A stretch of DNA of 64,000 nucleotides from an uncultured Bacillota bacterium (GTDB lineage Bacteria; Bacillota_I; Bacilli_A; RF39; UBA660): positions 62,001 to 126,000 of the forward strand of contig ONIZ01000001.1 of NCBI GenBank assembly GCA_900317975.1, read 5' to 3'. Below are positions 5,996 through 20,075 of this stretch, piece by piece. Numbering within the stretch: position 1 is the first letter of the stretch; each line of letters begins with the position of its first letter. The translations under genes were made by a program, and so were the position numbers. The notes beneath the pieces are model-generated. The model was not told where the DNA came from. It saw only the letters and a list, made by a program, of their open reading frames with translations, and searched no databases.

Positions 5996-6745
5996 ATGAT
6001 AACATTAAGAGAATATATATTAGAAGAGAAAATTCTGAATAAAGACAATGTATTTGTTTGGAATTATGCTCAATTTGATAAATGGGATGAGACAAAAGTA
6101 CTTGCGGAACTTAAAGAACAACTTGTCAAATTCCAGTTATCTTGTATTGTTACTATGGTAGGTGCAGCAAATGACAAAATGGAAAAAGATGAAAAAGAAT
6201 ATCCAGAAAAACTACGTAATGCTGCTATCAAAGCATCCAAAGAATACAAGTCATTTGAAAAGATGAATGATGAGAAAAAAGAACAATGGATTCTCAATAA
6301 GATAGAAGAAATCAAGAAGAATGCTGAGTATCTTACAAAGGACAATGGTAGATATAAGCATTTAGCTAAGAATTCTACAAAGGTTCCATTAATAGTTCCA
6401 CCAACAAAAATAGATACAACAACAATTGGTATTGATAATTTCAGAATACTAGTACGTAATGACATATATTCACAGCATTCTTCACAATTAATACATTGGG
6501 ATTCTACAGATATGGATCAATTGGCTAAATCAATATTCAAAGCTTTTCCTGATGACAATGAATTCAAAGATCATTTTAGAGGATTTGCGATATATACTGA
6601 TCAAAAGAACATAACTAGTTTTAATGCAATAAACATTACTTTTATGTTTGATGAAGAATTTGAAAACCAATTAGATAAATCTGTTAATCAATTTGCTGAT
6701 TTTATGCATCAAGAATATCAATCTGGAAGATATATGGGAGATTAA
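5996..6745 (+). CDS. Putative capsid-packaged protein (leader MITLREYILE)
   Basis: 249 residues and the first gene of the long leader-bearing array. The leader would be cut at I-L-E|E after residue 10. The mature region begins with an aromatic stretch (VFVWNYAQFDKW), then has a highly charged helical segment (about 55-115, Lys/Glu rich) and a mixed alpha/beta C-terminal part from about 125 to 249. I do not recognise the fold. It sits 17 bases after a promoter-like element and is followed at 31 bases by an ADP-ribosyltransferase-like gene in the same direction. Packaging is inferred from the leader. Confidence 0.75.
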   Translation: MITLREYILEEKILNKDNVFVWNYAQFDKWDETKVLAELKEQLVKFQLSCIVTMVGAANDKMEKDEKEYPEKLRNAAIKASKEYKSFEKMNDEKKEQWILNKIEEIKKNAEYLTKDNGRYKHLAKNSTKVPLIVPPTKIDTTTIGIDNFRILVRNDIYSQHSSQLIHWDSTDMDQLAKSIFKAFPDDNEFKDHFRGFAIYTDQKNITSFNAINITFMFDEEFENQLDKSVNQFADFMHQEYQSGRYMGD

Positions 6746-6776
6746 ATAAATTCATACTAGATAAAGAAGAAAATAA

Positions 6777-7610
6777 ATGAAAAGGTTGATAGATTATATT
6801 TGTGAATTAAGAGATGAAACATACTTTAAAGTTGCCCGTAAAAGAAATGAACAAGGCAAAGATATATCTGATATAATTTCGCATGCTAATGAAAGAATAA
6901 CTAAAGATTTTATCAAGGAATTGACATCATCAGATTGGTATAAAACATATGTAAAGAAAATAGAATACTCAGATGATTCATCAACTATTAAACTATTGTT
7001 GTCAGAACAAATGAGAGATGAATATGGGGCTGATCCAAAGTATGAAAATGAAAGACAGGAAATGTATGATAATCTTAAAACCCTTGCAAGAAAATATGGG
7101 CGTTTAATTCATGGATTACGATTTATGAACTGTTATGCAAATGAAGAACCAACTATTCTATTCTATTTGTTAGATAGAAAAAAATATTTGAAAGATATCA
7201 ATAAAGATACTATACTATATCATGTTACTTCAAAATTAGAAAATGCAAACAAAATTATTGAAAATGGAATTATAGTTAGTCAGCCGATTTTTACAACGTA
7301 TACATATAAATGTGTATTCGCATTCAAATCTAAAAGATTTATTGATATGTTTAGTAAAAAATTCTTAAAAAAGAAACAATATTATGTAATAGAATTCAAG
7401 GCTGGTGATAATATATATTTTGATGATTGGATGCTAAATAGTGAATTAATAACAGAATTACAATATAAATCACCTGGTGGCAATATGGATTCAATAAGAA
7501 AACGTGCATCACAAGCCATATTTACATTATCTAATATTGATAAAGAACAAATAGTTTCAGTAACAGAAATCAATGGTAAAAATAATAATGTAATATATTC
7601 AAAAGACTAA
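6777..7610 (+). CDS. Leader-bearing ADP-ribosyltransferase-like protein
   Basis: 277 residues. Leader MKRLIDYICE with a cut site I-C-E after residue 10. At residues 146-168 there is an I-L-Y-H149-V-T-S segment, then N-A-N-K-I-I-E-N-G-I. This matches the first NAD-binding strand and helix of many ART-fold enzymes (H-x-T/S, then a helix ending in a Gly-Ile turn). Downstream segments (FAFKSKRF, YYVIEFKAGDN) fit the later strands. T4 packages an ADP-ribosyltransferase (Alt) in its head and injects it to modify host RNA polymerase; a similar role is plausible here but unproven. The catalytic glutamate is not pinned down. The next gene starts three bases after the stop. Confidence 0.62.
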   Translation: MKRLIDYICELRDETYFKVARKRNEQGKDISDIISHANERITKDFIKELTSSDWYKTYVKKIEYSDDSSTIKLLLSEQMRDEYGADPKYENERQEMYDNLKTLARKYGRLIHGLRFMNCYANEEPTILFYLLDRKKYLKDINKDTILYHVTSKLENANKIIENGIIVSQPIFTTYTYKCVFAFKSKRFIDMFSKKFLKKKQYYVIEFKAGDNIYFDDWMLNSELITELQYKSPGGNMDSIRKRASQAIFTLSNIDKEQIVSVTEINGKNNNVIYSKD

Positions 7611-7612
7611 TT

Positions 7613-7804
7613 ATGAAATCATTAAGACAATATCTAACCGAGGATTTACATGATGTTATTGTTAAAGTAGGAGACTACTGGAGAATAAAGGGACATGCTG
7701 GCAAGGGAACAAACACTCCTAAACGTGGATATTGGAAAGCTAAATATAAGACAAGAGAAAAAGCTGAAAATGCTTTGAAAGCATATTTTGCTAATAAAGG
7801 ATAA
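7613..7804 (+). CDS. Small basic leader-bearing protein
   Basis: 63 residues. Leader MKSLRQYLTE with cut site L-T-E|D. The mature 53-residue part is strongly basic and Gly/Trp/Lys rich, with WRIKGHAGKGTNTPKRGYW at about residues 23-42, then a short helix ending in AYFANKG. This looks like a compact nucleic-acid-binding fold, similar to AP2-like or SH3-like mini-domains, but I cannot assign a family. It begins three bases after the ART-like gene, so the two are probably translated together. A small basic protein released into the host with the DNA is a plausible role (inference). Confidence 0.7.
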   Translation: MKSLRQYLTEDLHDVIVKVGDYWRIKGHAGKGTNTPKRGYWKAKYKTREKAENALKAYFANKG

Positions 7805-7828
7805 AAAATAAATAAAGAATATAAACTT

Positions 7829-8281
7829 ATGAAATCCTTAAATAATTATATAAATGAATCATTAGGTTATTATAAAACTTTATCAAATTTCTTAGAAACA
7901 TTTTGGTCTGAAGAAGATTGGTATGATGACATAAATGGAGCATTAGATGATAATGATGAACAAACTAGATTAAATTTAATTGATAACGGATATTGTTTGA
8001 CTGTATGTAATTGTGTATCATTTTTAGAAGACGAACCATTTTATGATGATGTTGAATATTACTTATTAGATGATGGTGGTTCAAGTTATCATTTCTTTAT
8101 GAAATATAAAGATCTTTATTATGATGCTTATAATTATAAAGGAGTAAAAAAATTATCAGATTTACAATTTTGCAAAAAATATATGAAAGGCAAATCTGAA
8201 GAATATTTAAATAAAAATTTAACTTTAGTAGGAAAAGGTGCCGATTTTAATTATGAAAAAGCACAAAGTTATATAAAATAA
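7829..8281 (+). CDS. Leader-bearing acidic hypothetical protein
   Basis: 150 residues. Leader MKSLNNYINE with cut site I-N-E|S. The mature protein is very acidic (WSEEDWYDDINGALDDNDE; FYDDVEYYLLDDGG) and rich in Tyr, with a short C-terminal helix. Internal proteins that mimic DNA are acidic, but so are many others, so no function is assigned. It is spaced 24 bases from the previous gene and 27 from the next; all run in the same direction. Confidence 0.7.
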   Translation: MKSLNNYINESLGYYKTLSNFLETFWSEEDWYDDINGALDDNDEQTRLNLIDNGYCLTVCNCVSFLEDEPFYDDVEYYLLDDGGSSYHFFMKYKDLYYDAYNYKGVKKLSDLQFCKKYMKGKSEEYLNKNLTLVGKGADFNYEKAQSYIK

Positions 8282-8308
8282 TAAAAAAACATTCCTAAAA
8301 CATAAACC

Positions 8309-8758
8309 ATGAAGAATATTACTGAATATATAATAGAAGCTGCAAAATTCAATTATTGGGAAGATGTTATTGGATTTCCAGGCTATGAATTGAAAGTTCC
8401 TAAAAAATATATAAAGCCAATTAATAATACTAAATATTATCAAGCAGAATTTTTAGAAAAATATTTTGGTTGGCTTAACCAATGGATTGATAAGAATATT
8501 AAAAAGATAGTTCAAATAGTAACTAAAGAAAATAAAGATTTTCCAAAAGAAATTTCAATTAAGTTGCCAAGTGAATTAGGCGGTAGTTTACAATTGGACT
8601 GGGACTGCGGATGGACGGATAATATACCTCATGGTTCTGTTCGTGATGTTGAATTAAAAGTAAACAACGTTTCTCCATCATCAATGAGTCATAGTTCATT
8701 CTATCAAGCTCAAGAAGATTTAACTAGTTTTAAATTAATTAATGAAATTAAATTTTAA
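8309..8758 (+). CDS. Leader-bearing hypothetical protein
   Basis: 149 residues. Leader MKNITEYIIE with cut site I-I-E|A, the closest match here to the T4 internal-protein site (I-A-E|A). The mature part opens with a short aromatic segment (FNYWEDVIGFPGYEL). A helix with two Trp follows (FGWLNQWIDKNIKK), then a beta-rich stretch (LQLDWDCGWTDNIPHG) around residues 90-115. No family recognised. It lies in the middle of the array with short intergenic spacers. Confidence 0.7.
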   Translation: MKNITEYIIEAAKFNYWEDVIGFPGYELKVPKKYIKPINNTKYYQAEFLEKYFGWLNQWIDKNIKKIVQIVTKENKDFPKEISIKLPSELGGSLQLDWDCGWTDNIPHGSVRDVELKVNNVSPSSMSHSSFYQAQEDLTSFKLINEIKF

Positions 8759-8777
8759 AATACATAAAATATAATAT

Positions 8778-9422
8778 ATGAAATCATTAATACAATACAT
8801 AACAGAACGAGTAAAAGATCTACCAAAGTCTATTACAGGATTAATTGTTTTTGATATTGATGATACTTTATTGAAAAGTAATCCTGCAACAATTGGTATA
8901 TATAAGAAAGAACCAGGGAAACCTGAAAAACGATTGACAACTGAAGAATTCGCAAAAGATCCAGATGCTGGTGATCCATCAAAGAAATCATGGTTTGACT
9001 ATAGAGAATTCAATGATCCAGTAAAAGTATATAACTCAATCATATCAGGAACGCCATTGATTAGAAATCTTAGAATAATGGATGACTATATTGAAGCCGG
9101 CTATGAATTCTGTTTTCTTACTGCAAGAAGTTGTGAAGAGACAATAAAGAAAGCTTTGAATGATTTCCTTAAAGTAAAGAAGACTGATGGTGCATTACAG
9201 GAACTTGGTGATATATTTAATAAGACATTATCACATGCAATAAATGATTCTTCTAAACAATATCCAGGCAGTTCTGATGCAGAAAAGAAAGCAAATGTAT
9301 TAAGAAAGCTTTGTAGTAAATATGATAGAGTTGTATTTGTTGATGATGACAGAAAAAATGTTATAGCAGCAAGAGAACTTAATCTTCCAAATCTTAAAGT
9401 CATAAAAGCATGGGATAACTAA
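8778..9422 (+). CDS. Leader-bearing HAD-superfamily phosphatase
   Basis: 214 residues. Leader MKSLIQYITE, cut site I-T-E|R. HAD motif I is F-D26-I-D28-D-T30 with the nucleophile and acid aspartates intact. Motif II is FLTAR near residue 115. The acidic motif is F-V-D-D-D-R-K-N near residue 193. The order and spacing resemble small phage phosphatases related to the 3'-phosphatase half of polynucleotide kinase or to nucleotidases. Substrate unknown. The enzyme would be delivered into the host if the leader works as proposed. It is the last gene before a terminator. Confidence 0.75.
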   Translation: MKSLIQYITERVKDLPKSITGLIVFDIDDTLLKSNPATIGIYKKEPGKPEKRLTTEEFAKDPDAGDPSKKSWFDYREFNDPVKVYNSIISGTPLIRNLRIMDDYIEAGYEFCFLTARSCEETIKKALNDFLKVKKTDGALQELGDIFNKTLSHAINDSSKQYPGSSDAEKKANVLRKLCSKYDRVVFVDDDRKNVIAARELNLPNLKVIKAWDN

Positions 9423-9466
9423 ATAAGAAAATATGATAATATATTAAAATCAATACTAAAATGTTA

Positions 9467-9502
9467 GAAGATCTGTGTAAATACGTAGGTCTTCTTTTTT
9501 AT
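9467..9502 (+). terminator. Intrinsic terminator
   Basis: AGAAGATCT pairs with AGGTCTTCT (one wobble) across a 12-base loop, followed by six T. It ends the block 5996-9422. Confidence 0.75.
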
Positions 9503-9515
9503 TTTTATATATAAG
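9495..9515 (+). promoter_or_regulatory. Candidate phage promoter
   Basis: TTTTTTATTTTTATATATAAG overlaps the terminator T-run and ends 20 bases before the next start codon. Same element as at other block heads. Confidence 0.5.
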
Positions 9516-9535
9516 AATAAATTTGTTATATAATT

Positions 9536-10804
9536 ATGAAGCGACTTAAAGATTATATTTTTGAAAGTACATCAGATTTTATATTATTAAAAACATTTGA
9601 AGATGCTAAACAATGGTTTGAAAATACTGGGTGGATTAAAAATAATGATGATTCTAAACTTAAAGAAAAAATGAAAATTTCTTTAAATGATATATTAACT
9701 ATTTATGATATAGCTGATGAACATAATAAAATAGCACCATTAGTTGGTAATTATAAATCTAAAAGAGTATTTGCTATGCGTAGATGGATTGATAATTATA
9801 TTGATGAATGGTCAAAAATATCAAAAAATTCAAATATTACAGATGATTGGTTTTGGACTCCTATAAAAGGAATTTACGGTGGTCCTCATAACACAAATCT
9901 TAAAGAAGATGGATCATTTCAACCTACAGCAGAAGATATGGAATCTGTAATTAGTTTTGCGTATAATCATTTATCTAATGAAGAATATGATGATTATGAA
10001 AATATGAATTATGTTTGTAATTCTTCTAAAAATAAACCTAATCAAAAAGTAGAAAATTTATTAAATTATTATCAAGATGAAAAAAGATTTATGGATGGAT
10101 GTGCAAATGCATTAATTAAATTTATAAATAATAAATCTTTAAAATTTCATAAATTATTAACTAATGGGAAAACTTGCACGGAATTATGGAAAAAATTAGG
10201 AACATATGAAGAAGCTAATGAAAAAGTAAATAATACACCTAAAACAGATATTATATCATCAGATAATCAATATAAAATATCATTAAAAAAAGCTCATGGA
10301 TCTCAACTAATGTCAGGAGCATATTGTGAAAGTAAAGCAACAATAATGAGTATTGCAAAAGACACACTTAATAATGATGATTTTAAATTATTAGAAGATT
10401 TATTAAATGTAGATAAAAAATGGGCAAAATTATCTGGTAATAATAAAGGTATTGCAAAACAAAAAATAAATGGTTCTGATGAAATTAAAAAAATAATTAA
10501 TGATTCTGAGAATGCTGCTAATGATGTTAATAAAATATTAAATAATTTATTAGATCATAATGAAGAATTTAAAAAGGCATTATTATATGAAGCAATGACA
10601 GGAGAAATTAAATTTGGGGAAGAATCATTATTAGCAGCTAATTATGTATTTGTTTGGTCAACCAAAGAAACTGAAAATAAATTATATACAGTTAAAGATT
10701 ATCTTACATATTTATTAAGTAATAAATGTAAATTAAAAATTGAAGTTTCTTGGAAAACTGGTGGATCTACTTCATATCAAACATTAAGAATTGTAACAAA
10801 TTAA
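9536..10804 (+). CDS. Leader-bearing protein with KISLKK/GSQLMSG motif
   Basis: 422 residues. Leader MKRLKDYIFE, cut site I-F-E|S. Residues 20-230 are mostly helical, with two conserved-looking aromatic patches. Around residue 245-265 comes Y-K-I-S-L-K-K-A-H-G-S-Q-L-M-S-G, then a helix containing E-S-K-A-T. A strand with S-L-K-K after an acidic residue is reminiscent of PD-(D/E)xK nuclease cores. I think I recognise the GSQLMSG stretch from virion-associated proteins of other large phages, but I cannot verify this. The C-terminus is beta-rich (KIEVSWKTGGSTSY). The DNA is more AT-rich than the neighbouring structural genes. Nuclease activity is a weak hypothesis. Confidence 0.62.
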   Translation: MKRLKDYIFESTSDFILLKTFEDAKQWFENTGWIKNNDDSKLKEKMKISLNDILTIYDIADEHNKIAPLVGNYKSKRVFAMRRWIDNYIDEWSKISKNSNITDDWFWTPIKGIYGGPHNTNLKEDGSFQPTAEDMESVISFAYNHLSNEEYDDYENMNYVCNSSKNKPNQKVENLLNYYQDEKRFMDGCANALIKFINNKSLKFHKLLTNGKTCTELWKKLGTYEEANEKVNNTPKTDIISSDNQYKISLKKAHGSQLMSGAYCESKATIMSIAKDTLNNDDFKLLEDLLNVDKKWAKLSGNNKGIAKQKINGSDEIKKIINDSENAANDVNKILNNLLDHNEEFKKALLYEAMTGEIKFGEESLLAANYVFVWSTKETENKLYTVKDYLTYLLSNKCKLKIEVSWKTGGSTSYQTLRIVTN

Positions 10805-10820
10805 ATAAGTAATATAAATT

Positions 10821-11924
10821 ATGTCAAAACAAAAATTAAATATAGCAATCGGTCGTTTTCAACCATTTACTCAAGGCCATTTGAACATGGTTAATGAAGG
10901 TGAAGGACCATGTATAGTATATAGAATCAATTCATCAAATAAGACTATTGAACGTAAGAAGAAAGGAATTAAGATTGGTAGTAAGTCTTGGACTGATGAA
11001 TCTGTAAATAAGGTTATAGCTTATATTGATAATCCAACAGGTGACTTAACTGAGCAAGAAAAGGAGCTTCTTAAACGTCCTTTCACAAATGAATTAATTG
11101 ACAAAGAACTTGAGTCAGTCAAGAAGGCTAATAAGAATATAATTGATGTTGTTCCTGTTACTCATGTTTATGATGCTTTAGGAAGATTTAATGCATTTCT
11201 TACTGAACATTCTGATGAATATGAACCAGGATATTGGATGTGTGGAGATGATCGTAAAGCTGACTTTGAAAGTAATATTGAAAAGATGGCTAAATATACA
11301 GATCTTGAAACAGAATTCAAATCGGGAAAAACATATCCAAATATTCTTATTGGAAAACTTAAAGTGAATACTGGCAAGGGGCGTACTGAAGGAGTTTCTG
11401 GAACAGCAGTTCGTAAATCTATTCTCAATAAAGACAAAGCTGCATTTGAAAAAATAATGCCTAAGGGCGCAGGATCTTTATTCAATGATTTCACTAAAGC
11501 ATTTGATGAATTTAAAGCTCAATTACAAAATATCATTAAAGAACATAAGATGATGACACTTAAAGAATATATTTTTGAAGCACAAAAAACTTGGCAAACA
11601 GAAATAATAGATATTGCTAAACAATATATTATTGAACCAAATAATGGAGAATATGATATATCAGATATTACAAAAATGATCAATACTAAAAAAATAGATG
11701 AATATTTAATTGGCTATTTATGTGAATATCTTGCTTATTCTGTAACAAATAGATATGGGGATGATTTAACTGTTGATGAAATTGTGGACAAAATGAAATC
11801 TCAATCACGAAAAGAAGCATATTTAAAATTGCAAAACTATGAAGATTCAGATAAAGAAATAACTGATTTGATAATTCAAGGATTACAAAAAGGATTAAGG
11901 AGAAATCCTAATTTTCCAGAATAA
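10821..11924 (+). CDS. Cytidylyltransferase-like (NMN adenylyltransferase type) protein with internal packaging leader
   Basis: 367 residues. Residues 1-243 are a nucleotidyltransferase: G11-R-F-Q-P-F-T-Q-G-H20 is the HxGH-type nucleotide-binding motif, and V-S-G-T-A-V-R near residue 192-198 is the ISGTxxR motif. NMN adenylyltransferases of this family make NAD. A complete packaging leader then appears inside the protein (M-M-T-L-K-E-Y-I-F-E, residues 244-253; cut site before A254), followed by a 114-residue helical tail of unknown function. Flanking DNA shows that the leader region was duplicated (see 11527-11573). The tail is thus probably a former separate cargo gene fused in frame. If the protease cuts at E253, the tail would be released. 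Confidence 0.78.
   Translation: MSKQKLNIAIGRFQPFTQGHLNMVNEGEGPCIVYRINSSNKTIERKKKGIKIGSKSWTDESVNKVIAYIDNPTGDLTEQEKELLKRPFTNELIDKELESVKKANKNIIDVVPVTHVYDALGRFNAFLTEHSDEYEPGYWMCGDDRKADFESNIEKMAKYTDLETEFKSGKTYPNILIGKLKVNTGKGRTEGVSGTAVRKSILNKDKAAFEKIMPKGAGSLFNDFTKAFDEFKAQLQNIIKEHKMMTLKEYIFEAQKTWQTEIIDIAKQYIIEPNNGEYDISDITKMINTKKIDEYLIGYLCEYLAYSVTNRYGDDLTVDEIVDKMKSQSRKEAYLKLQNYEDSDKEITDLIIQGLQKGLRRNPNFPE
11527..11573 (+). repeat. Duplicated leader region, copy 1 (copy 2 at 11925-11971)
   Basis: About 47 bases, three differences between copies: an ATTAAAGAACATAA segment followed by the ATG and the codons of T-L-K-E-Y-I. In copy 1 it is read through inside the nucleotidyltransferase gene. In copy 2 it provides the start of the next gene. 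In both, the bases before the leader also encode I-I-K-E-H-K, so copy 2 carries a relic of the nucleotidyltransferase end. Confidence 0.8.
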
Positions 11925-11947
11925 AAAATATAATTAAAGAACATAAA

Positions 11948-12322
11948 ATGCTGACACTTAAAGAATATATTACGGAAACAAAAGTTACAGATAACCAATT
12001 ATATGAAAATATAGAATGGTGTTTATCTGATTTATTAGAATTTAATGATGTCGATGAAAATTATTTATTATTGGCTATTGATGAATTTAATTCAGTTTAT
12101 AAAGCATTAACTGAAAAAAATGTAAAATATGATATTGATTTTATTTGGAAAACTTTATTAGAAAAATATGAAGATTTAATATATGAAAAAATAAATAAAA
12201 ATACATTTTTAAATATAATCAAAAAATATGATAAACAATTAACAGAAAATATATTGTTAAATGCAAAGGATAGTATAAAAGATATAAAAGACGAAATACA
12301 AAAAACAGGTAAATTAAGTTAA
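11948..12322 (+). CDS. Leader-bearing hypothetical helical protein
   Basis: 124 residues. Leader MLTLKEYITE, cut site I-T-E|T. The leader and its upstream 24 bases are a near copy of the internal leader of the preceding gene, so this gene lies next to a tandem duplication breakpoint. The mature protein is acidic and almost entirely helical (for example DLLEFNDVDENYLLLAIDEF), with a Lys/Asp-rich C-terminus. It may be distantly related to the tail of the previous gene, but the bodies are not obviously alike by eye. Function unknown. Confidence 0.7.
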   Translation: MLTLKEYITETKVTDNQLYENIEWCLSDLLEFNDVDENYLLLAIDEFNSVYKALTEKNVKYDIDFIWKTLLEKYEDLIYEKINKNTFLNIIKKYDKQLTENILLNAKDSIKDIKDEIQKTGKLS

Positions 12323-12333
12323 TAAAAATTATT

Positions 12334-12627
12334 ATGAAATCAATTAATCAATATATTTCAGAATCACAGGATAAGTATTTTACACAACAAGAAATTGGTA
12401 AAATAACTAAAGATATGTGGGATAAGAATGGTCAATTTTATAAATTTATAAAAGATAAAGTTGATTCATTATCTAAAGAGGACATTAATGATTATCTTGA
12501 CCAATGTCTCGATGATGATAGATGCACAGCTGAATTTGCTTCCTATATTGAAATGATTATAGGACGTCATAACTTCAGTTTAGAACAAGTACAGCAGTTC
12601 ATAAATACAGAAGATTTAAAAGGATGA
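12334..12627 (+). CDS. Leader-bearing hypothetical protein, source of the repeated 3' end
   Basis: 97 residues. Leader MKSINQYISE, cut site I-S-E|S. The mature part is helical (DKYFTQQEIGKITKDMW, then a Cys-containing acidic helix) and ends FSLEQVQQFINTEDLKG. The last about 60 bases of the gene recur twice downstream as non-coding relics (13659-13720 and 14087-14152), so this gene or a relative was copied at least twice and then largely replaced. It stops at TGA within GGATGAAAG, which overlaps a vestigial ATG. Confidence 0.7.
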   Translation: MKSINQYISESQDKYFTQQEIGKITKDMWDKNGQFYKFIKDKVDSLSKEDINDYLDQCLDDDRCTAEFASYIEMIIGRHNFSLEQVQQFINTEDLKG

Positions 12628-12664: not shown

Positions 12665-13615
12665 ATGAAATCAATTAGAGAATATATTAATGAAGCATAT
12701 CAAGCAACATATTTAAAAGGTTGGAAACCCGTAGAACAATTAGATAATAAACATCATATTACTGTTAAAGATGATAATATATTAGGAGTATTTTTTGATA
12801 ATACATGGAAATGGCATCATAAGAGATATGGTAATATATATATAGGAATGCTTAATAAAAATGAAATATCTAATCCAGAAATTAAACTTTATAGTGATAA
12901 AGGAGTTTTCACAAGTATTAAAGAAATTCAAGATGCATATAATACTACTGAAAAGAATTTGTCAAAATTAGTTAAAGAAAATAAAATTAAAATGTCATTA
13001 GTACTTAATAATTTTAATATATATGTTAAAATAATAAAACGAAATGATCTTTGGTATGATGAGATTGCAGCAGCGGGATTAAAATTAGCAGGTGTAGGTA
13101 AATCATTAGGTAAATGTTCATTTGAAACATTCTCAGTTGTTGATATAGATTTATCAAATCCAGATAATAATGATGCAAAATATGTATATAAAAATTATTC
13201 TCAAATATCTATTAAAAACCAAGTTGAAACAAGTGCAAGAAAAGATGGCGGCAGAAAAGTAACAGGATATTGTGCATTTACATTTGTCCCATATCATAAT
13301 TATGAAGATATTGAAACTGATGTTATTAAAGATAATGTAGATAGAAATTTATTACCTGCATTATTACTTCAATATTTGAAAAATACAAATATAACATTTG
13401 ATGATAAAAAAATATCATTATCATTAATTAAGAATCAATTAGAATTACAAGAAGATAAATATAAAGAGTTTAAAGAATTTATAGATAATCATATTAAAAG
13501 TTTAAATGCTGATGTTTTAAAACGTCATGAAGAATACTTACAATCTGATGATTATAAAAATGGAGAAGCTAGTAGAAAACATGATGATTATTTATTAATG
13601 ACAAATGGAATGTAA
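12665..13615 (+). CDS. Leader-bearing hypothetical protein, 316 residues
   Basis: Leader MKSIREYINE, cut site I-N-E|A. The mature protein has a beta-rich N-terminal part (aromatic VFFDNTWKWHHKRYGNIYIG, residues 55-75). A central alpha/beta region follows, with LWYDEIAAAGLKLAGVGKSLG at about 122-142; the second half resembles a glycine-rich loop but is not a clear P-loop. The C-terminus is Lys/Glu-rich and helical. No family recognised. Low GC and A-ending codons match its neighbours. It is followed by a 99-base spacer containing a relic of an older gene. Confidence 0.68.
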   Translation: MKSIREYINEAYQATYLKGWKPVEQLDNKHHITVKDDNILGVFFDNTWKWHHKRYGNIYIGMLNKNEISNPEIKLYSDKGVFTSIKEIQDAYNTTEKNLSKLVKENKIKMSLVLNNFNIYVKIIKRNDLWYDEIAAAGLKLAGVGKSLGKCSFETFSVVDIDLSNPDNNDAKYVYKNYSQISIKNQVETSARKDGGRKVTGYCAFTFVPYHNYEDIETDVIKDNVDRNLLPALLLQYLKNTNITFDDKKISLSLIKNQLELQEDKYKEFKEFIDNHIKSLNADVLKRHEEYLQSDDYKNGEASRKHDDYLLMTNGM

Positions 13616-13714: not shown

Positions 13715-14062
13715 ATGAAAGACTTAAGTAATTTTATAATTGAAAGAGGAGCAGCTCCTAATGTTAATATTGATAAAAGCAAAGTTATGTCAAAATATCC
13801 TCATGTAAATATGGTTATGTCTATTATCGATGAGTTAAAGAAGCATAATGACTGTAAGTTTGATGGTAAACAATGGTCTGGTAATGATGCTGATTTATGG
13901 AAAGGTGCAGGACAATTCTTATTTGACTATATGAAAGAATTAGGACAAAAAGAACTAAAAGATATTGTTGCACATTTTGGATGGGAGGAATATATAACAG
14001 ATTTAAACAAGATCTATCCAGCAGAAATTTCTATATGTATGGCTCAAGAATTACAAAAATAA
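13715..14062 (+). CDS. Leader-bearing hypothetical protein
   Basis: 115 residues. Leader MKDLSNFIIE, cut site I-I-E|R. The start ATG overlaps the stop of a decayed upstream gene copy (GGGATGAAAG), which supports this start. The mature protein is a mixed helical domain with conserved-looking Trp and Gly (KQWSGNDADLWKGAGQFLF at 52-70) and a Pro/Glu-containing C-terminal helix. No family recognised. GC content is slightly higher than in the adjacent genes. Confidence 0.7.
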   Translation: MKDLSNFIIERGAAPNVNIDKSKVMSKYPHVNMVMSIIDELKKHNDCKFDGKQWSGNDADLWKGAGQFLFDYMKELGQKELKDIVAHFGWEEYITDLNKIYPAEISICMAQELQK

Positions 14063-14086
14063 CATATATAATATATAGAGATAATA

Positions 14087-14152: not shown

Positions 14153-14164
14153 AAAAAATAAACT

Positions 14165-14836
14165 ATGTTAACTTTATTAGAATATATCAATGCAGAACGT
14201 TCTAATTTTCCAGATGAAGTTTGGTTTAATGATAAATGGTATAACACAGAATCAAAATATGCTCGTCCATTCATCATTAATATAAAAACACACCAATCAT
14301 TATTTGGAGAAATTGGTCAATATCATTGTAAAATGTCTAAATTAAAAATAATGTTAAAATTTTTTTGTACATGGGATAGCTTAAAAGACGAATATAGAGT
14401 TAAAACATCAACATATCATGGGAGAATATGGGTAATTAATGATACAGATATAAATACCGTGTTAATATGTTGGTGGGAAGACTTAAATGATCAAAATTTT
14501 TATGAACTTAACAAAGAATTAATATTAAAATACAATAAAAAATTTAATACAAATATAACAAAAGCATTAGTAGTTAATAATAATGATGAATTTGTTAATT
14601 TTGACATAAATAATAAAAACATTGAACATATTAAACCACGTTCTTCTGATAATAAAAAACTAAAAGAAATGCATAAAATTATTCATTTGGCTTCTCAAAA
14701 GGATAAAGAAGAATACTTTAAACAATTTAAGAAAATAAGAGATGAAAATAATCAAACAAAATATTATAATCATACAAAATCAAAAACAGAAGCTGAATGG
14801 AGAAGTATTAAATATCAAGAAAGTTTAGAAGAATAA
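14165..14836 (+). CDS. Leader-like hypothetical protein (MLTLLEYINAE)
   Basis: 223 residues. The N-terminus follows the leader pattern but has I-N-A-E instead of I-x-E at position 10, so cleavage would need a shifted site after E11 or may not occur. The mature part has many aromatic residues in its first half (DEVWFNDKWYNTESKYARPF) and a Trp-rich strand (VLICWWEDLNDQNFY) near residue 100. The C-terminal 70 residues are Lys/Glu-rich and helical. No family recognised. The upstream spacer contains a gene-end scar, suggesting this gene replaced an older copy. Confidence 0.65.
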   Translation: MLTLLEYINAERSNFPDEVWFNDKWYNTESKYARPFIINIKTHQSLFGEIGQYHCKMSKLKIMLKFFCTWDSLKDEYRVKTSTYHGRIWVINDTDINTVLICWWEDLNDQNFYELNKELILKYNKKFNTNITKALVVNNNDEFVNFDINNKNIEHIKPRSSDNKKLKEMHKIIHLASQKDKEEYFKQFKKIRDENNQTKYYNHTKSKTEAEWRSIKYQESLEE

Positions 14837-14856
14837 AATAAATAATAAATTTTAAT

Positions 14857-15207
14857 ATGAAATCTATTAATGAATATATAACGGAATCTGTAGCATCAAT
14901 TAAAGTGAATAAGATGAAACAAGAATTCAAACAGAAATTTGATAATAAAGTGACTATAGGTTCAGGCCGGGCAAATCATCAACAATTATATGATGTATAT
15001 ATCTATGATGATAAAATGAATACTCTGAAAGAAGTAAATGAAATTCTTAAACGTTATTTGAAAAAATGGAAAGGATTTAGTTATAAAGAATTAAAAGATA
15101 AACTTAAAGAAAAGGGAGATTTCTTTAAAGATTATCAAGATGATGATTTATGCACATTAGATAGATATCCAGTTGAATTTATCAGATTTACTTCCAGAGA
15201 TTTATAA
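14857..15207 (+). CDS. Leader-bearing hypothetical basic protein
   Basis: 116 residues. Leader MKSINEYITE, cut site I-T-E|S. The mature protein is Lys-rich, with a beta strand pair (VTIGSGRANHQQLYDVYIYDD) and two amphipathic helices. It ends in a short aromatic segment (YPVEFIRFTSRDL). No known motif. It is the last gene before a hairpin terminator. Confidence 0.7.
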   Translation: MKSINEYITESVASIKVNKMKQEFKQKFDNKVTIGSGRANHQQLYDVYIYDDKMNTLKEVNEILKRYLKKWKGFSYKELKDKLKEKGDFFKDYQDDDLCTLDRYPVEFIRFTSRDL

Positions 15208-15215
15208 AGTACTAT

Positions 15216-15245
15216 AGAAGATCTAATCAATAGGTCTTCTTTTTT
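15216..15245 (+). terminator. Intrinsic terminator
   Basis: AGAAGATCTA pairs with TAGGTCTTCT around a five-base loop, followed by five T. Same stem sequence family as the terminators at 5931, 9467 and 16996. Confidence 0.75.
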
Positions 15246-15267
15246 ATTCATTTCCTTATAATATTTT

Positions 15268-15290
15268 TTTTTATTTTTAACTATATTATA
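15268..15290 (+). promoter_or_regulatory. Candidate phage promoter
   Basis: A TTTTTATTTTTAACTATATT element 26 bases before the start of the next leader gene, separated from the upstream terminator by about 20 bases. Confidence 0.5.
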
Positions 15291-15315
15291 AATGTATAAA
15301 TAAAATAGATCAATT

Positions 15316-15615
15316 ATGAAAGATATTAAACAATACATTACAGAAGGCAAAAATGGATGGGAATTTTTTGATAGTGCAACCGATACTTTTGGCGGTGGAA
15401 TAGAACTATCTGGACTTGAAAATAAAAAAATAAAATGGCTTTTAGTCAATACAGATTCAGAAATTATTGCTGGTGTTACAGAATATAATTTAGATTCATG
15501 GGCAGAGGATGATGAATATTTTAAAGATGCTGCAAAAGCAATCAAATCATTAAAGATAGGAGACTCTTATGATGCTGATGGCGGTATAAATATTTATCTT
15601 AGAATTAGAAAATAA
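15316..15615 (+). CDS. Leader-bearing hypothetical protein
   Basis: 99 residues. Leader MKDIKQYITE, cut site I-T-E|G. The mature part looks like one small alpha/beta domain: a Gly-rich turn (FGGGIELSG), a strand with Trp (KWLLVNTDSEII), an acidic helix (DSWAEDDEYFKDAAKAI) and a final strand pair (DGGINIYLRIRK). No family recognised. First gene after a promoter-like element. Confidence 0.7.
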   Translation: MKDIKQYITEGKNGWEFFDSATDTFGGGIELSGLENKKIKWLLVNTDSEIIAGVTEYNLDSWAEDDEYFKDAAKAIKSLKIGDSYDADGGINIYLRIRK

Positions 15616-15637
15616 AAATAAAATATTAGTAAATAGT

Positions 15638-16138
15638 ATGAAAAGTATTAATGCATACATAACAGAAAGATATCAGAATAATGCATCAAATAAAGAGGCT
15701 ATGTTCTTGCATTTAGATGGTTTGCGTCAATCAGAAGGATTTTCATTTACCGAAGGAGAAAAGGCTTTACTTTTAAAATATGATACTGATGGATATCGTA
15801 TTCAAGTTAGAGGTATTGTAGAAATTGAAAAGGTACTTAAGAACAGTATTCGTATAAAGACCGAAGATGCAGATTCAACCGATTTTTATCATAGTTTAAA
15901 ATTTGATAAGACTGGTATTGCTATAGTTAAGACAAATAGCAAATATCGTGGTAAGTCAACAGCATATTGGGTTCTATATAATAAAGAACTTATCAATAGT
16001 GATAAAGATGGTAAGGATATTACTGAAATATTAAATACTAAGGGTAATATCTGGGGATTCCATTTATATGGTCATGAAGATTTCCAAAAACAAGATCTTA
16101 AAGATCTTAAAAAATATGTTAAAGAAATGAATAAATAA
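15638..16138 (+). CDS. Leader-bearing hypothetical protein
   Basis: 166 residues. Leader MKSINAYITE, cut site I-T-E|R. This gene uses different synonymous codons for the leader (AGT for Ser, TAC for Tyr), which argues that the peptide rather than the DNA is conserved. The mature domain is alpha/beta, with VRGIVEIEKVLKNSIRI and YRGKSTAYWVLYNKELI strands. No known motif. The next gene starts two bases after the stop. Confidence 0.7.
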   Translation: MKSINAYITERYQNNASNKEAMFLHLDGLRQSEGFSFTEGEKALLLKYDTDGYRIQVRGIVEIEKVLKNSIRIKTEDADSTDFYHSLKFDKTGIAIVKTNSKYRGKSTAYWVLYNKELINSDKDGKDITEILNTKGNIWGFHLYGHEDFQKQDLKDLKKYVKEMNK

Positions 16139-16140
16139 AT

Positions 16141-16383
16141 ATGAAAGACATAATGAATTTTTTGATAAATGAATCTAGAACAAGATTTATAGACATTGAA
16201 CAATATGGAAATTCATGGATAAAAGAATGGGGTTCTGAATATTGTGGGGATGTTTTGAAAAACTTTATAAAAGGAGTTGAAAGAGGTATGAAATGTCTTA
16301 AATCAGATGATGCCAAATTTCAAAAACGTTGTGAAGATTGTATTAGTGAAATATTAGAAAAAATAAATAAAGACATATATTAA
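16141..16383 (+). CDS. Leader-bearing small protein, paralog 1 of a tandem pair
   Basis: 80 residues. The leader MKDIMNFLINES carries one extra residue relative to the consensus; the likely cut site is L-I-N-E|S. The mature part shares a clear core with the next gene: S-W-I-K-E-W-G-S-E-Y-C-G, then a basic helix and F-Q-K-R-C-E-D-C, ending I-N-K-D-I-Y. Three Cys are shared by both paralogs and could bind metal or form disulfides. Function unknown. Spacing to both neighbours is two bases. Confidence 0.75.
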   Translation: MKDIMNFLINESRTRFIDIEQYGNSWIKEWGSEYCGDVLKNFIKGVERGMKCLKSDDAKFQKRCEDCISEILEKINKDIY

Positions 16384-16385
16384 AT

Positions 16386-16655
16386 ATGAAGAACTTAAAA
16401 GAAAAGTTAATAAATGAAGCAAAGAAAACAGATTTTGAAAAAATAGAAGATCTTGGTGCTTCATGGATAAAAGAATGGGGATCTGAATATTGTGGTAATA
16501 TTCTTAGTTCTGTTATAAAAGGAATTCAGAAAGGAATAAAAGAAAATCCATATACTAATGATAAGAATGCATATCCAGCAAATAATACATTTCAGAAACG
16601 TTGTGAAGACTGCATTAAGAAAATCCTTAATGAAATAAATGAAGACATATATTAA
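16386..16655 (+). CDS. Leader-bearing small protein, paralog 2 of a tandem pair
   Basis: 89 residues. Leader MKNLKEKLINEA, likely cut site L-I-N-E|A. It has the same SWIKEWGSEYCG and FQKRCEDC blocks as the gene before it, with a ten-residue insert (PYTNDKNAYP) between them. The end of the gene (GACATATATTAAATATGAAG) matches the end of the first paralog and is followed by a third, aborted start. The duplication is therefore recent in relation to the array. Confidence 0.75.
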   Translation: MKNLKEKLINEAKKTDFEKIEDLGASWIKEWGSEYCGNILSSVIKGIQKGIKENPYTNDKNAYPANNTFQKRCEDCIKKILNEINEDIY

Positions 16656-16690
16656 ATATGAAGAACTTAAAAAATATTATATATTAAATT
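16656..16690 (+). pseudogene. Aborted third copy of the leader start
   Basis: ATGAAGAACTTAAAA at 16658 repeats the first codons of the 16386 gene, then runs into stop codons within nine codons. It marks an incomplete third unit of the tandem pair or the seam left by its deletion. Confidence 0.7.
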
Positions 16691-16963
16691 ATGAAAGACA
16701 TTAAAAACTATTTAGTTAATGAAGCAAAATCATATAATTTTAAAGATATTAAATATACAATGATATCCTATTATAAACCAGAAGATCCATTAGCATTTTT
16801 ATTAGAAGATATATCAGAAATAAGTGATATATATTATGATTGGGATTTTAAACCTGAAGATGTCGATAAAATTATAGAAGAAGTTAATAAGCTTCAAGTA
16901 AATGAATGTTATGTAAATAAATCTGGCACAAATGATTTTGAAGTTATTTCAAGAATTAAATAA
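16691..16963 (+). CDS. Leader-bearing acidic hypothetical protein
   Basis: 90 residues. Leader MKDIKNYLVNEA with one extra residue, cut site V-N-E|A, as in the two preceding genes. The mature part is acidic and Tyr-rich (YDWDFKPEDVDKIIEEVNKL), with a C-terminal Ser/Asn/Asp stretch. It is not clearly related to the tandem pair beyond the leader. Last gene before a terminator-promoter cassette. Confidence 0.7.
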   Translation: MKDIKNYLVNEAKSYNFKDIKYTMISYYKPEDPLAFLLEDISEISDIYYDWDFKPEDVDKIIEEVNKLQVNECYVNKSGTNDFEVISRIK

Positions 16964-16967
16964 ATTA

Positions 16968-17045
16968 TAATATTAAAATCAATACTAAAATGATTAGAAG
17001 ATCTGTATGAATATATGGATCTTCTTTTTTATTTTTAACTATATA
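16968..17045 (+). repeat. Terminator-promoter cassette, copy 2
   Basis: Near copy of 9436-9515. It contains the hairpin AGAAGATC (16996-17003) / GATCTTCT (17018-17025), a T-run, and a TTATTTTTAACTATATATTT promoter-like element ending about 20 bases before the holin-like gene. Confidence 0.7.
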
Positions 17046-17062
17046 TTTAATTATTAAAGATT

Positions 17063-17383
17063 ATGGAAACAATTATAAGCTTTTTCTCAGATCATTTTTG
17101 GGCAACTTGTGCAATGCTGTCATCAATTACTGTAATTATTGCAGGTTATTTCAATGCATTATTGAATACAAATAAGATATGGAAACAAGTTGTATCTTGG
17201 TTAACTAGTATCATATTGACTGTAGGAGGTTATTTTGCTGGAACTATAACACTTAATGAGCCAGTATGGTTGACAATTATCTTAACAGGTATTATTGTTG
17301 GTTTGTCATCAAATGGTATCTATGATATTCCTAAGATCAAGGAGCTAATAAACAAAATAACTAAAAACATTCCTAAAGCATAA
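17063..17383 (+). CDS. Holin-like membrane protein
   Basis: 106 residues with three predicted membrane segments (about 13-33, 42-62 and 67-85), a short loop NKIWKQVVSW between the first two, and a Lys-rich cytoplasmic tail. Size, three-helix layout and charged tail fit class I phage holins, which permeabilise the inner membrane at lysis. I see no endolysin beside it, so lysis function is inferred from topology alone. It interrupts the cargo array, has its own promoter-like element, and lacks the packaging leader. Confidence 0.62.
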   Translation: METIISFFSDHFWATCAMLSSITVIIAGYFNALLNTNKIWKQVVSWLTSIILTVGGYFAGTITLNEPVWLTIILTGIIVGLSSNGIYDIPKIKELINKITKNIPKA

Positions 17384-17386
17384 GCT

Positions 17387-17794
17387 ATGAAAAAATTCTT
17401 TAGTAAAATTTGGAATTGGATCAAAGGATTATTCTTTGATAAGAAGATCAAATATGAAGATGAAATATTATTGACTTGGAATCCTAGTTGTCCCAAATGT
17501 GGAACAACAATGGGATATTTTGACACAGGTGTTGTTGAAGTTAAATATGAATGGTTTACCGGAGGAATACGAACACATATATCTGGTCATGGTTCACAAG
17601 AATATCAATTCCATTATTATAAATGTGGTCGTTGTGGAGAATGGCAGATGTATGAATACCGAGAAACTCCATCATGGTGGGATGATCTATGGGGAAATGA
17701 TTGCCCATTTACTCGAGGAGACATCATAAAGAAATGGCAAAATAATGAATTCCGTATGAAGGAATATGAAGGTCATACAATAACAAAATGGTAA
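17387..17794 (+). CDS. Zinc-ribbon hypothetical protein
   Basis: 135 residues, three bases after the holin-like gene. The N-terminus is basic and aromatic (MKKFFSKIWNWIKGLFFDKK), suggesting membrane association. A zinc ribbon follows: C-P-K-C at about residue 36-39 and C-G-R-C at about 82-86, separated by a Gly/Tyr-rich beta segment. The C-terminus is Trp-rich. There is no packaging leader. Coupling to the holin-like gene suggests a lysis or envelope-related role, but this is guesswork. Confidence 0.68.
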   Translation: MKKFFSKIWNWIKGLFFDKKIKYEDEILLTWNPSCPKCGTTMGYFDTGVVEVKYEWFTGGIRTHISGHGSQEYQFHYYKCGRCGEWQMYEYRETPSWWDDLWGNDCPFTRGDIIKKWQNNEFRMKEYEGHTITKW

Positions 17795-17815
17795 ACAAAA
17801 AATTAATATATAGTT

Positions 17816-18388
17816 ATGAAATCATTAAAACAATTTATAAATGAAACTATTAATAAATCATTAGATGAAATCATTTTTGAAGGATTTTTAGATAAATTAA
17901 AGAATGCTATTAGTGATGTGATTGATAATCCACAAAAATATATTGATAATGTCAAATCACAGGTTGATGAGTTAAAAAAGACAACATATATGCGGTATAA
18001 AAACAAAGAAAATATTGAAGCTGTAGCAAAAGAACTTGATAAATTAAATAATGATGAAAGCCTAAAGAACATATATAATTATGTTAAACAGATATTTAAT
18101 GGCAAAGATAAGCAATTAAAATTTGGTTTATTAGGTGATTCTGGATATTTAGAAGATATATTCAAAGATGTTGAAAAAACATTTAATTCTGATGATAATA
18201 AAACATTTGCTATTGTACAGATTGCAAATGCTATAGCTATAGCAACAAAAGATAAATTTCATGTTCCATCCGCATCAGATTATTATAGTAATTCGCATTC
18301 ACATAATAGTTATCATTCAAGTAAATCATCAAGAAAAGCAGGTATGATTTCAGCCGCAGTAGGAGCCGGAATGGCAATGAGAAGATAA
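17816..18388 (+). CDS. Leader-bearing protein with possible second cut site
   Basis: 190 residues. Leader MKSLKQFINE, cut site I-N-E|T. A second leader-like segment follows at once (K-S-L-D-E-I-I-F-E|G, ending near residue 22), so two successive cuts are possible. The body is helical and Lys/Asp-rich. Residues 150-175 are a Ser/His-rich linker (YYSNSHSHNSYHSSKSS), and the C-terminus AGMISAAVGAGMAMRR is a Gly/Ala-rich hydrophobic helix that may insert in membranes. A packaged protein with a membrane-active tail could act during genome entry (inference). Confidence 0.7.
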   Translation: MKSLKQFINETINKSLDEIIFEGFLDKLKNAISDVIDNPQKYIDNVKSQVDELKKTTYMRYKNKENIEAVAKELDKLNNDESLKNIYNYVKQIFNGKDKQLKFGLLGDSGYLEDIFKDVEKTFNSDDNKTFAIVQIANAIAIATKDKFHVPSASDYYSNSHSHNSYHSSKSSRKAGMISAAVGAGMAMRR

Positions 18389-18420
18389 AGAAATATTAAA
18401 TAAACATAACAAATAATTTT

Positions 18421-19713
18421 ATGAAATCACTTATACAATATATTTCAGAAACTGAAAGAATATCATCAATAGATGATTATATACATGAAGCCTTGCAACC
18501 AATTTTAGAAGGTGGTGCTGGTGGTCACATGGCTCATCCTTTTGATTATACTGACTTTACAGCAAACGACTTGATAGAATTAGTTGACTCATTATTTCAA
18601 GGCAAGGTTGAAGACTTAAAAGAAAAACTTGATGGATTCAATATTGAAGCAACAATGAATAATGATGGTCAAGTTGTATTTGTAAGAAATGATGAGGAAC
18701 GAAATTCTGAACAAGGTGGTATTACTATTGATGAAATGTATAAGAAATGGGAAGGCAAAGATCAACAGATAAAAGTATATACATCTTCAGGAAAAGTCAT
18801 TGAACAGATTTTCAAGAAATTCCCTGTTAAGTTTTTCAATCCAGATCCCAATCATCGTAAAATGTATAATTGTGAATGCATAGTTTCAGGACAGACAAAC
18901 ATTATGCCTTATGCTGCTGATAGGGTAGCGTTTCATGGATATAAGATTTATGAAAAGGGAATAGGAACAAAGAAAGGTAAGTTCTTTAATAAGGAAGTTT
19001 GGAATGTTGTTGAAGACGTAGAAGGAAATGTTGATGATATCTATAAAGCTGCTGAAGGAATAGACAAAGCTAAGCCACGTCCTAATTTGGTTATACGTTC
19101 ATTAGAAGATGGAATTAAGTTTGCAAAGAAATTCTCACAAGACATATCTAAATTATGGTCTGATGAAGGATTAGAAAATACTGCTTCTGTGGAAGACTGG
19201 AAAAAGTCTAGATTTAGAAAATTTGCTCCTGCTTGGTGTAAAGATGATGATCGTATATTTAATCGTCTATGCAATGCTGACAAAACAGTCAACTTGAGAT
19301 TATTGAAAAAAGAATATGAAGATCATATTGATGAATTGAATGAGCTTGATAAGAAGGAAGGAAAGAAACTTGTGGGCAAGATCATGGAACCAATGGACAA
19401 TCTTTTCTTATCAATAGGTAATGAACTTATTGATCAACTTGATGGATTCATTAATTCAGGTTCAAAGGAAAAGATTGTAGCTCAATTGAAGGCAGATATG
19501 GAATCAACAGTTAAAGCAGTTGAAGCATCAGATTCTGTTGATGCAAAAGATAAACTTGAAAAATCAATACAACGTCTTCAAGCATTGAATAATAAGTATA
19601 ATGCAGCTGAAGGAATTGTAATAATGTATAAAGGTAGAAGAATGAAATTCACTGGAAGTTTTGCTCCATTGAATGCTGCCTTAGGGACAAGATTTATGTT
19701 AGAAGAAAAATAA
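18421..19713 (+). CDS. Leader-bearing polynucleotide ligase-like nucleotidyltransferase
   Basis: 430 residues. Two leader-like blocks in tandem: MKSLIQYISE (cut after E10) and I-D-D-Y-I-H-E (cut after E23). A Gly-rich segment EGGAGGHMAHPFD (30-42) follows. Then comes K69-L-D-G72, the K-x-D-G motif I of covalent nucleotidyltransferases (DNA/RNA ligases, capping enzymes), with a following beta hairpin ending V-F-V-R-N. E-G-I-V-I-M-Y-K and M-K-F-T-G near residues 398-416 resemble motifs IV and V. Spacing is longer than in small ligases. If active, it could seal nucleic acid nicks on entry. The leader is certain; the ligase call rests on motifs only. Confidence 0.65.
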   Translation: MKSLIQYISETERISSIDDYIHEALQPILEGGAGGHMAHPFDYTDFTANDLIELVDSLFQGKVEDLKEKLDGFNIEATMNNDGQVVFVRNDEERNSEQGGITIDEMYKKWEGKDQQIKVYTSSGKVIEQIFKKFPVKFFNPDPNHRKMYNCECIVSGQTNIMPYAADRVAFHGYKIYEKGIGTKKGKFFNKEVWNVVEDVEGNVDDIYKAAEGIDKAKPRPNLVIRSLEDGIKFAKKFSQDISKLWSDEGLENTASVEDWKKSRFRKFAPAWCKDDDRIFNRLCNADKTVNLRLLKKEYEDHIDELNELDKKEGKKLVGKIMEPMDNLFLSIGNELIDQLDGFINSGSKEKIVAQLKADMESTVKAVEASDSVDAKDKLEKSIQRLQALNNKYNAAEGIVIMYKGRRMKFTGSFAPLNAALGTRFMLEEK

Positions 19714-19727
19714 TAATAAAATAAATT

Positions 19728-20075
19728 ATGAAATCTATAACTCAATATTTAAAGGAAGACAGATTCAGTGATTATGAAAACAAAGCTTCCGAACATATTA
19801 TAAATGTTTTGCAAGATTATGCAGATTTAGAAACTCCAATTGAAAAGAATGATTATGTTATAAAGTTAAATTCAAATATCAAAAAGTCAGATCTTAAAGA
19901 TATAGATAAAGAATTATGTAAAGTACTTGCATCTCATGAAGTTTCTGTAGGATTAAAAAGTCTATCTGTCAATGTATTCAAAGAACCATTACTATCAATA
20001 TCTGAAGTTAATGGAAAATATATTGTTTGCTTAAAGGGCAAAGCAAAGACATACTATGAAAATAATTTTAAATAA
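19728..20075 (+). CDS. Leader-bearing hypothetical protein, last of the main array
   Basis: 115 residues. Leader MKSITQYLKE, cut site L-K-E|D. The mature domain is alpha/beta: an N-terminal helix (HIINVLQDYADL), a strand (NDYVIKLNSNI), a helix with Lys/Asp, and two C-terminal strands (LLSISEVNGKYIVCLKG). It starts 15 bases after the ligase-like gene and ends before a bidirectional hairpin terminator. Function unknown. Confidence 0.7.
   Translation: MKSITQYLKEDRFSDYENKASEHIINVLQDYADLETPIEKNDYVIKLNSNIKKSDLKDIDKELCKVLASHEVSVGLKSLSVNVFKEPLLSISEVNGKYIVCLKGKAKTYYENNFK

Follow-up and report, generated by a model that had tools for sequence, protein, structure and literature searches.

A putative T4-type capsid-targeting leader on about 100 proteins of one large phage contig, with copies at other protein positions in its relatives

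The capsid-targeting sequence (CTS) of phage T4, its cleavage by gp21 and its sufficiency for packaging foreign proteins are established (PMC5694885, PMC9958956). T4 has three internal proteins (IPs), IP1-3, which are alike in their leader only and each of which blocks one GmrSD restriction enzyme, but at least ten IPs have been reported across the T-even phages (PMC12373910); an initial annotation of the DNA considered here, which credited T4 with few internal proteins, was thus right for T4 itself and too narrow for its group. SPN3US and phiKZ also eject many head proteins, some of them cut by the prohead protease, although at an AXE motif, with most propeptides 111-254 residues long and no common short leader (PMC10052503), and N-terminal residues of the P1 protein DarB suffice to direct a reporter into the capsid (PMC9024508). 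The DNA in question is a stretch of 64,000 nucleotides (the window), positions 62001-126000 of the 410,106-bp contig ONIZ01000001.1 (C82; 29% guanine plus cytosine) in the 1.9-Mb assembly GCA_900317975.1, where many genes of a T4-like giant phage start with a leader of about ten residues, M-K-x-[aliphatic/aromatic]-x-x-[YF]-[IL]-x-E, in front of unrelated bodies, as in T4 IPI-IPIII and Alt. This leader is very probably a T4-type signal for capsid targeting and cleavage, greatly expanded and used beyond the N-terminus. The mechanism is that of the T4 internal proteins; what clearly sets this case apart is the scale, a library of DUF285 proteins and the C-terminal use of the signal, with the packaging itself predicted from sequence.

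A strict leader pattern starts 98 of the 526 open reading frames (ORFs) called greedily on the whole contig, against 3 of 2,321 internal Met codons, and a scan independent of gene calling returned 100-102 leaders. Since the greedy caller overlooked two genes (14857 and 15316; coordinates are those of the window unless the contig is named) and took in a few that are questionable (contig 119648, 331251 and 400177), the total is given as about 95-100 in one contig, unlike the three IPs of T4. Leader genes sum to about 56 kb, or 14% of the contig, and are dispersed across all of it. The earlier count of nearly 30, made from the 64-kb window only, was too low, and the accompanying idea of small genes near the protease gives way to a contig-wide set in which some members are enzymes or repeat proteins.

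When [ILV]-x-E-[ASTGNDKR] was counted by its distance from the start codon, a procedure that does not presuppose the leader, 84 instances fell at residue 10 against 3.4 expected. In another tally, the third residue before the cut (P3) was I in 34, L in nine and V in two cases, and the expected propeptide has about ten residues, unlike the AXE motif and mostly long propeptides of SPN3US and phiKZ. In most leaders with one extra residue, the hydrophobic residue shifts along with the glutamate (FLINE/S, KLINE/A, YLVNE/A; slashes mark the predicted cut) and, thus, it is the cut motif that is conserved. A 30-base DNA pattern matched 80 times in the phage contig and four times in the remaining ~1.5 Mb of the assembly; its reversed form gave two matches in the assembly against 84 forward, and a frame-shifted form gave 0-2 per record in the relatives. 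Codons of the plain (class I) leaders broadly track genome-wide usage (for example, S as TCA, TCC, TCT or AGT, and I as ATT or ATA), so that conservation is of the peptide and not of the DNA, as the initial annotation had argued from differing synonymous codons. Upstream of the class I leader genes, no promoter or other motif peculiar to them stood out clearly.

Directly downstream of the leader cluster at 5996-20075 lies a prohead protease (Peptidase_S77, T4 gp21 family) fused to a scaffold protein (20910..22607, forward strand), which matches Pfam PF03420 at 1.6e-11, above the cut-off, and the PHROG family phrog_207, head maturation protease, at 1.5e-41. This gene and the gp23-type major capsid protein (MCP; 22744..24540, forward strand; tblastn to PAU gp156 and annotated MCPs) mark the phage as T4-like. 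The cut motif I/V-x-E recurs in the scaffold and the MCP of this phage, in the form of tandem W[IV]xEEFAPEVQ repeats in the scaffold half and of a candidate cleavage segment, IHEIHE/S, near residue 41 of the MCP, and both are also found in relatives. The T4 IP system likewise combines an S77 protease with a cut motif common to scaffold and MCP, and the T4 leaders read from NC_000866 are alike (ipII and ipIII, MKTYQEFIAE/A; gp24, MAKINELLRE/S; gp23 is cut at FLTE/A), consistent with reported propeptides of 10 residues for gp24 and 65 for gp23 (PMC9958956). The resemblance to a gp21-cut CTS, first proposed from the leader, is therefore supported by the adjacent protease, by the T4 leaders and by the motif in scaffold and MCP. 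N-terminal sequencing showed that the mature MCP of Sphingomonas phage PAU retains 520 of its 585 residues (PMC5646251), which places its start no more than one residue away from an L-x-E site (LME/N). The leader may mimic the scaffold repeat through the shared pattern aromatic-[ILV]-x-E. In T4, the hypothetical protein gp61.1 (NC_000866 18966-19130, reverse strand) starts MKTFKEFIKE, closely CTS-like, and may be an unrecognised internal protein.

The MCP has its nearest relatives in the phage collection in LR756500, PAU, Lak phages and Tenacibaculum phages, and IMGVR_UViG_2799112330_000002 (IMG/VR) encodes a protease 100% identical to that of the window. Proteases of 51-58% identity occur in six viral contigs besides the source contig, and leader genes adjoin most of them. 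Contig G001 has leaders on 29 of 222 ORFs, with an [ILV]-x-E peak of 29 at residue 10 (1.7 expected), and the 376-kb G006 on 40 of 612, with a peak of 39 at the same residue (4.1 expected); G007 and G008 gave 31 and 13 pattern matches, with zero control matches in both. PAU differs in its consensus, MK[ST][LI]xxLYE, present in 19 genes and expected to be cut after residue 9, where 20 [ILV]-x-E sites were counted against 2.5 expected. The PAU leader genes (gp142-146, 149, 150, 152-154 and others) lie mostly close to portal, protease and MCP, their products often have a second site, KLNE/[AS], and gp142 and gp154, both with PAU-type leaders, carry the annotation 'internal capsid protein'. In LR756500, about 25-30 genes have the leader MK[YF][IL]xxYEEF[IL]xE (MKYIKEYEEFILEA), with a peak of 22 at residue 13 against 4.7 expected, and in L131 it reads MIKxFDEFVNE. 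A search for S77 gave matches above the cut-off in every one of the five reference phages and in six of the ten viral contigs examined; G012 and G013, contigs that may be incomplete, gave no match. Frequent MIKF starts in Lak-A2 were considered as a leader and rejected by the [ILV]-x-E distance analysis. A search of the open literature (subscription papers lay outside it) turned up no account of so large a leader family, none of the families in PAU and LR756500 and none of a CTS copied to the C-terminus.

The leader genes of the contig fall into two classes. Class I (47 genes) has the plain leader and diverse bodies and includes the whole 5996-20075 cluster, whereas class II (51 genes) has an extended leader, MKKLNQFITE/KFRLSKDNL or near. 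At least two DUF285 (PF03382) repeat units were recognized by pattern in 44 of the 51 class II proteins, and leader-bearing DUF285 arrays lie at 28-30, 51-55, 200-202, 231-238, 250-257, 266-272 and 291-296 kb of the contig. The claim that the bodies are unrelated thus stands for class I, apart from the paralogues 16141 and 16386, but not for 62328 and 63022, which belong to this 44-member family. Among 228 repeat units, the framework residues F, W, D, I and S hardly vary (for F and W, the search pattern itself imposes this), and five or six positions are near random, with an entropy of about 3-3.9 bits, as would be expected of a diversified binding surface. The leaders of the arrays are near-identical in DNA, and the strong k-mers upstream of DUF285 genes probably derive from conserved 3' ends of the paralogues that precede them. 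None of the leader genes of G006, otherwise similar, is DUF285. Moreover, some proteins bear tandem double leader-like segments (18421; contig 250947, 292831 and 139330). The extended class, the tandem leaders, the protease-scaffold fusion and the C-terminal and internal tags of relatives all differ from T4, and the diversified DUF285 family with its extended leader, together with the C-terminal tag, look new.

Comparison of cargo between relatives indicates that similar bodies are joined to different leaders. Relatives of the HAD protein at 8778 occur in about 30 viral contigs, where the bodies align and the N-termini are mostly lineage-specific leaders, including MKSLxxYIxE, MKTLHEYILME, MIKLFEEFVKTELLVE, MKGLSRYLWEELMLE and others. 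A leaderless HAD form, fused behind a hydrolase-like domain (MEKLLYVHGLGGTGHGG...), is found in L134-L139 at loci without leaders, and an S77 search of L134, the contig of this set that was searched, gave no match. The 18421 body is kept in L026 (leader MKSIIQYIRE) and in LR756500 (leader MKFLKSYEEFLNE; E 8e-30), and its relatives in L121, L124 and L127 have a shorter N-terminus without a clear standard-form leader. Few bodies have orthologues between relatives, which amounts to a high turnover.

The nucleotidyltransferase family of 10821 starts almost at its GRFQPF motif, without an N-terminal leader, and several members have the tag elsewhere. In L120 and L123 the protein ends ...KKKESKS..KVKEGL[IK]SLKNYILES[LI]K, in L121 it ends ...KEHKRISLKEFIIESLNI and in L124/L125 ...KEHKMISLKEYITESIIKQ, each directly before the stop codon. 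Three C-terminal tags, among them ...KEGLKSLKNYILESIK and ...KEHKRISLKEFIIESLNI, have no preceding Met and, therefore, are not internal starts there. A further body comes after the tag in L127, L122, L138, L144 and the window gene 10821, whose in-frame copy at 11550 (MMTLKEYIFEAQ) the initial annotation had overlooked; several of these bodies are separate genes elsewhere. In L027, the 12334 body and its leader are fused behind a leader-bearing nucleotidyltransferase. The nucleotidyltransferases of L026, L114 and L145/L146 are without a clear tag, and further scans for C-terminally tagged nucleotidyltransferases yielded no additional contigs. The independent C-terminal cases are few, in about three free C-terminal groups. 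These tags could possibly reflect the decay of an older fusion; nevertheless, their sequence is retained, with conservative changes only, after loss of the Met. Given the C-terminal copies in close relatives, the tag is probably independent of position; the strictly N-terminal placement of the T4 examples is not known to be required. Encapsulin cargo-loading peptides are short C-terminal tags that send enzymes into an HK97-fold shell; no homology with them is claimed, and the present tag doubles as a protease-site motif and is mostly N-terminal.

The leader genes listed in this paragraph are on the forward strand, and the 21 ORFs listed by the initial annotation in 5996-20075 are all present with a leader, although one is degenerate. 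The cluster opens with MITLREYILE/E (5996..6745), MKRLIDYICE/L (6777..7610, a body without confirmed family), MKSLRQYLTE/D (7613..7804, 63 amino acids, whose G001 orthologue is 86% identical and has the leader), MKSLNNYINE/S (7829..8281), MKNITEYIIE/A (8309..8758), the HAD hydrolase MKSLIQYITE/R (8778..9422; Pfam PF00702 4.2e-7, phrog_415 1.3e-11) and MKRLKDYIFE/S (9536..10804, 422 amino acids, with a leader-bearing L026 orthologue). The nucleotidyltransferase with the GRFQPF motif (10821..11924; Pfam CTP_transf_like 2.9e-5) then carries its internal leader, MMTLKEYIFE/A, and a further domain, and is followed by MLTLKEYITE/T (11948..12322), MKSINQYISE/S (12334..12627), MKSIREYINE/A (12665..13615, 316 amino acids), MKDLSNFIIE/R (13715..14062, with a leader-bearing L027 orthologue) and the degenerate MLTLLEYINAE (MLTLLEYINAERS; 14165..14836), which lacks [ILV]-x-E. 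Next are MKSINEYITE/S (14857..15207), MKDIKQYITE/G (15316..15615) and MKSINAYITE/R (15638..16138), as well as three leaders with one extra residue that keep the motif, namely the paralogous MKDIMNFLINE/S (16141..16383) and MKNLKEKLINE/A (16386..16655), both with I-x-E, and MKDIKNYLVNE/A (16691..16963), with V-x-E. MKSLKQFINE/T (17816..18388), the protein with two leader-like segments (MKSLIQYISE...DYIHE/A; 18421..19713), whose conserved body contains K-x-D-G and EGIV motifs, and MKSITQYLKE/D (19728..20075) complete the cluster. Elsewhere in the window, the additional genes proposed earlier were recovered at 1587..1892 (MKTITNFINE/S, with leader-bearing homologues in L022, L026 and G001), 53637..53885 (MKTLEGYINE/M), 54888..55124 (MKSFKKYIKINE/S, with the glutamate at residue 12, ...YIKINES), 62008..62319 (the weaker MKNITEKIYE/N), 62328..63002 (class II, MKKLNQFITE/KFRLSKDNL, a DUF285 repeat protein; PF03382 1e-56) and 63022..63696 (class II, a second DUF285 repeat protein), but not at 63910, where MKQINEYLQGG lacks the glutamate of the motif.

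Regarding the cargo, the 8778 body is a HAD hydrolase related to the phage polynucleotide kinase (PNK)/phosphatase family, and the other recognisable bodies are a NUDIX hydrolase (contig 34174) and the 10821 nucleotidyltransferase; among relatives, L027 adds an AAA_33 kinase and NTP_transf_2, and LR756500 a DUF2201 metallopeptidase-VWA protein. Pfam searches gave no convincing match to the majority of class I bodies. The reading of 6777 as an ADP-ribosyltransferase was dropped because its AlphaFold model, from 6777 alone, was poor (mean predicted local distance difference test, pLDDT, 48.6) and matched no solved structure. The 18421 model, from a four-sequence alignment, reached a pLDDT of 57.9, and Foldseek returned non-significant matches only, the leading ones including T4 RNA ligase 2 (E 0.8-2.5); a nucleotidyltransferase or ligase-like function is therefore suggested by the K-x-D-G and EGIV motifs and is not proven. 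A role of the cargo in nucleic-acid repair or nucleotide signalling is a guess.

Several neighbouring features were observed in passing. By eye, a MoxR-like AAA ATPase (1965-3266) adjoins the leader cluster; the next protein (3644-5899) combines a metallopeptidase-like segment with an end that is VWA-like and is without a leader, whereas the DUF2201 metallopeptidase-VWA protein of LR756500 (200318-201793) bears the LR756500 leader. The gene just 5' of the protease (20118-20765) is on the reverse strand, and in L024, L026 and L027 the genes at a similar position have the plus orientation; a nuclease-like protein (46800-47420; DKGHLANAEDF segment, by eye) has a signal-peptide-like N-terminus. 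Terminal repeats were looked for in the 410,106-bp contig and none were found. The related phage contig L114 (JAFRDD010000099.1) was binned in a goat-ileum 'Clostridia' metagenome-assembled genome, possibly as a binning artefact, and several named relatives infect Bacteroidetes (Tenacibaculum, Chryseobacterium, Prevotella).

During head assembly, the leader would recruit each protein into the scaffold core, probably through the likeness of its aromatic-[ILV]-x-E to the W[IV]xE of the scaffold repeats, the S77 protease would cut after [ILV]-x-E, and the mature protein, free inside the head, would be ejected together with the DNA. As about 100 mostly unrelated proteins share the cleavable peptide, the head is probably loaded with a large and varied protein set that would be delivered with the DNA; from targeting and cleavage to packaging, ejection and roles in anti-defence or early takeover, these steps are what we infer from sequence comparison. 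A broader proposal, tentative and held with slightly more doubt than belief, is that of a portable, position-independent tag for loading and release (N-terminal, C-terminal or between fused cargo), which would deliver about 100 protein species, including enzymes of nucleic acids and nucleotides and a diversified library of about 44 DUF285 binding proteins, into the host ahead of all phage gene expression. Some observations weigh against a capsid-targeting role. The CTS reading offers no function for the KFRLSKDNL segment of class II, which would stay on the mature protein after the cut; no phage head known to us packages about 100 protein species; G007 and G008, which are linear and possibly incomplete contigs, gave no S77 match despite their leaders; and Lak-A2 and pT24 have S77 with a weak or no leader signal, so that S77 alone does not imply a leader set. 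The Lak-A2 case, together with several bodies that look like T4 cytoplasmic enzymes (NUDIX, HAD/PNK-like phosphatase), would also suit a leader that sends proteins elsewhere, to the membrane or a replication compartment, or marks them for turnover, its likeness to T4 being coincidental. This seems improbable, since what is conserved is precisely the S77 cleavage signature, kept at lineage-specific distances and common to the same phage's scaffold and MCP and to the T4 CTS, and two PAU leader proteins are annotated as internal capsid proteins.

It is scarcely credible that the shared N-terminus is a feature of translation initiation or of the mRNA, such as A-rich 5' codons, or a relic of recent duplication or gene conversion. 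The genes do open with ATGAAA or ATGAAG and the leaders of the DUF285 arrays are near-identical in DNA; however, synonymous codons vary as they do genome-wide, C-terminal copies exist, some without Met, leaders differ between lineages while [ILV]-x-E is constant, and the bodies are mostly unrelated. Another alternative concerns the last step only and fits the CTS reading, namely that the proteins are packaged and cleaved but remain in the head as structural components (core, condensing or vertex proteins). The same protease processes the T4 core proteins gp67, gp68 and gp22 (PMC9958956), PAU shows unexplained inner structures under its vertices (PMC5646251), and few bodies have a suggested enzymatic function, yet this alternative is rather unlikely in view of the high turnover of bodies between relatives, of enzymatic domains (NUDIX, HAD, AAA_33 kinase, nucleotidyltransferases) and hypervariable DUF285 positions that suit delivered effectors, and of the precedent of T4 IP1-3, which are injected anti-restriction proteins (PMC12373910).

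If the leader is indeed a capsid-targeting signal, the virions of PAU, a cultured relative, make the packaging idea testable now. The C-terminal tag would reveal how packaging can extend to enzymes with an N-terminus built into the active fold, and may be useful for phage-based protein delivery. Moreover, since each of the three T4 IPs blocks one GmrSD enzyme, a set of a hundred would be a rich source of anti-defence candidates. Throughout the clade, delivered proteins could thereby be listed by their leader from phage genes that are otherwise anonymous, with about 95-100 entries for this phage, about 36-40 for G006, 29 for the G001 fragment, about 25-30 for LR756500 and 19 for PAU.

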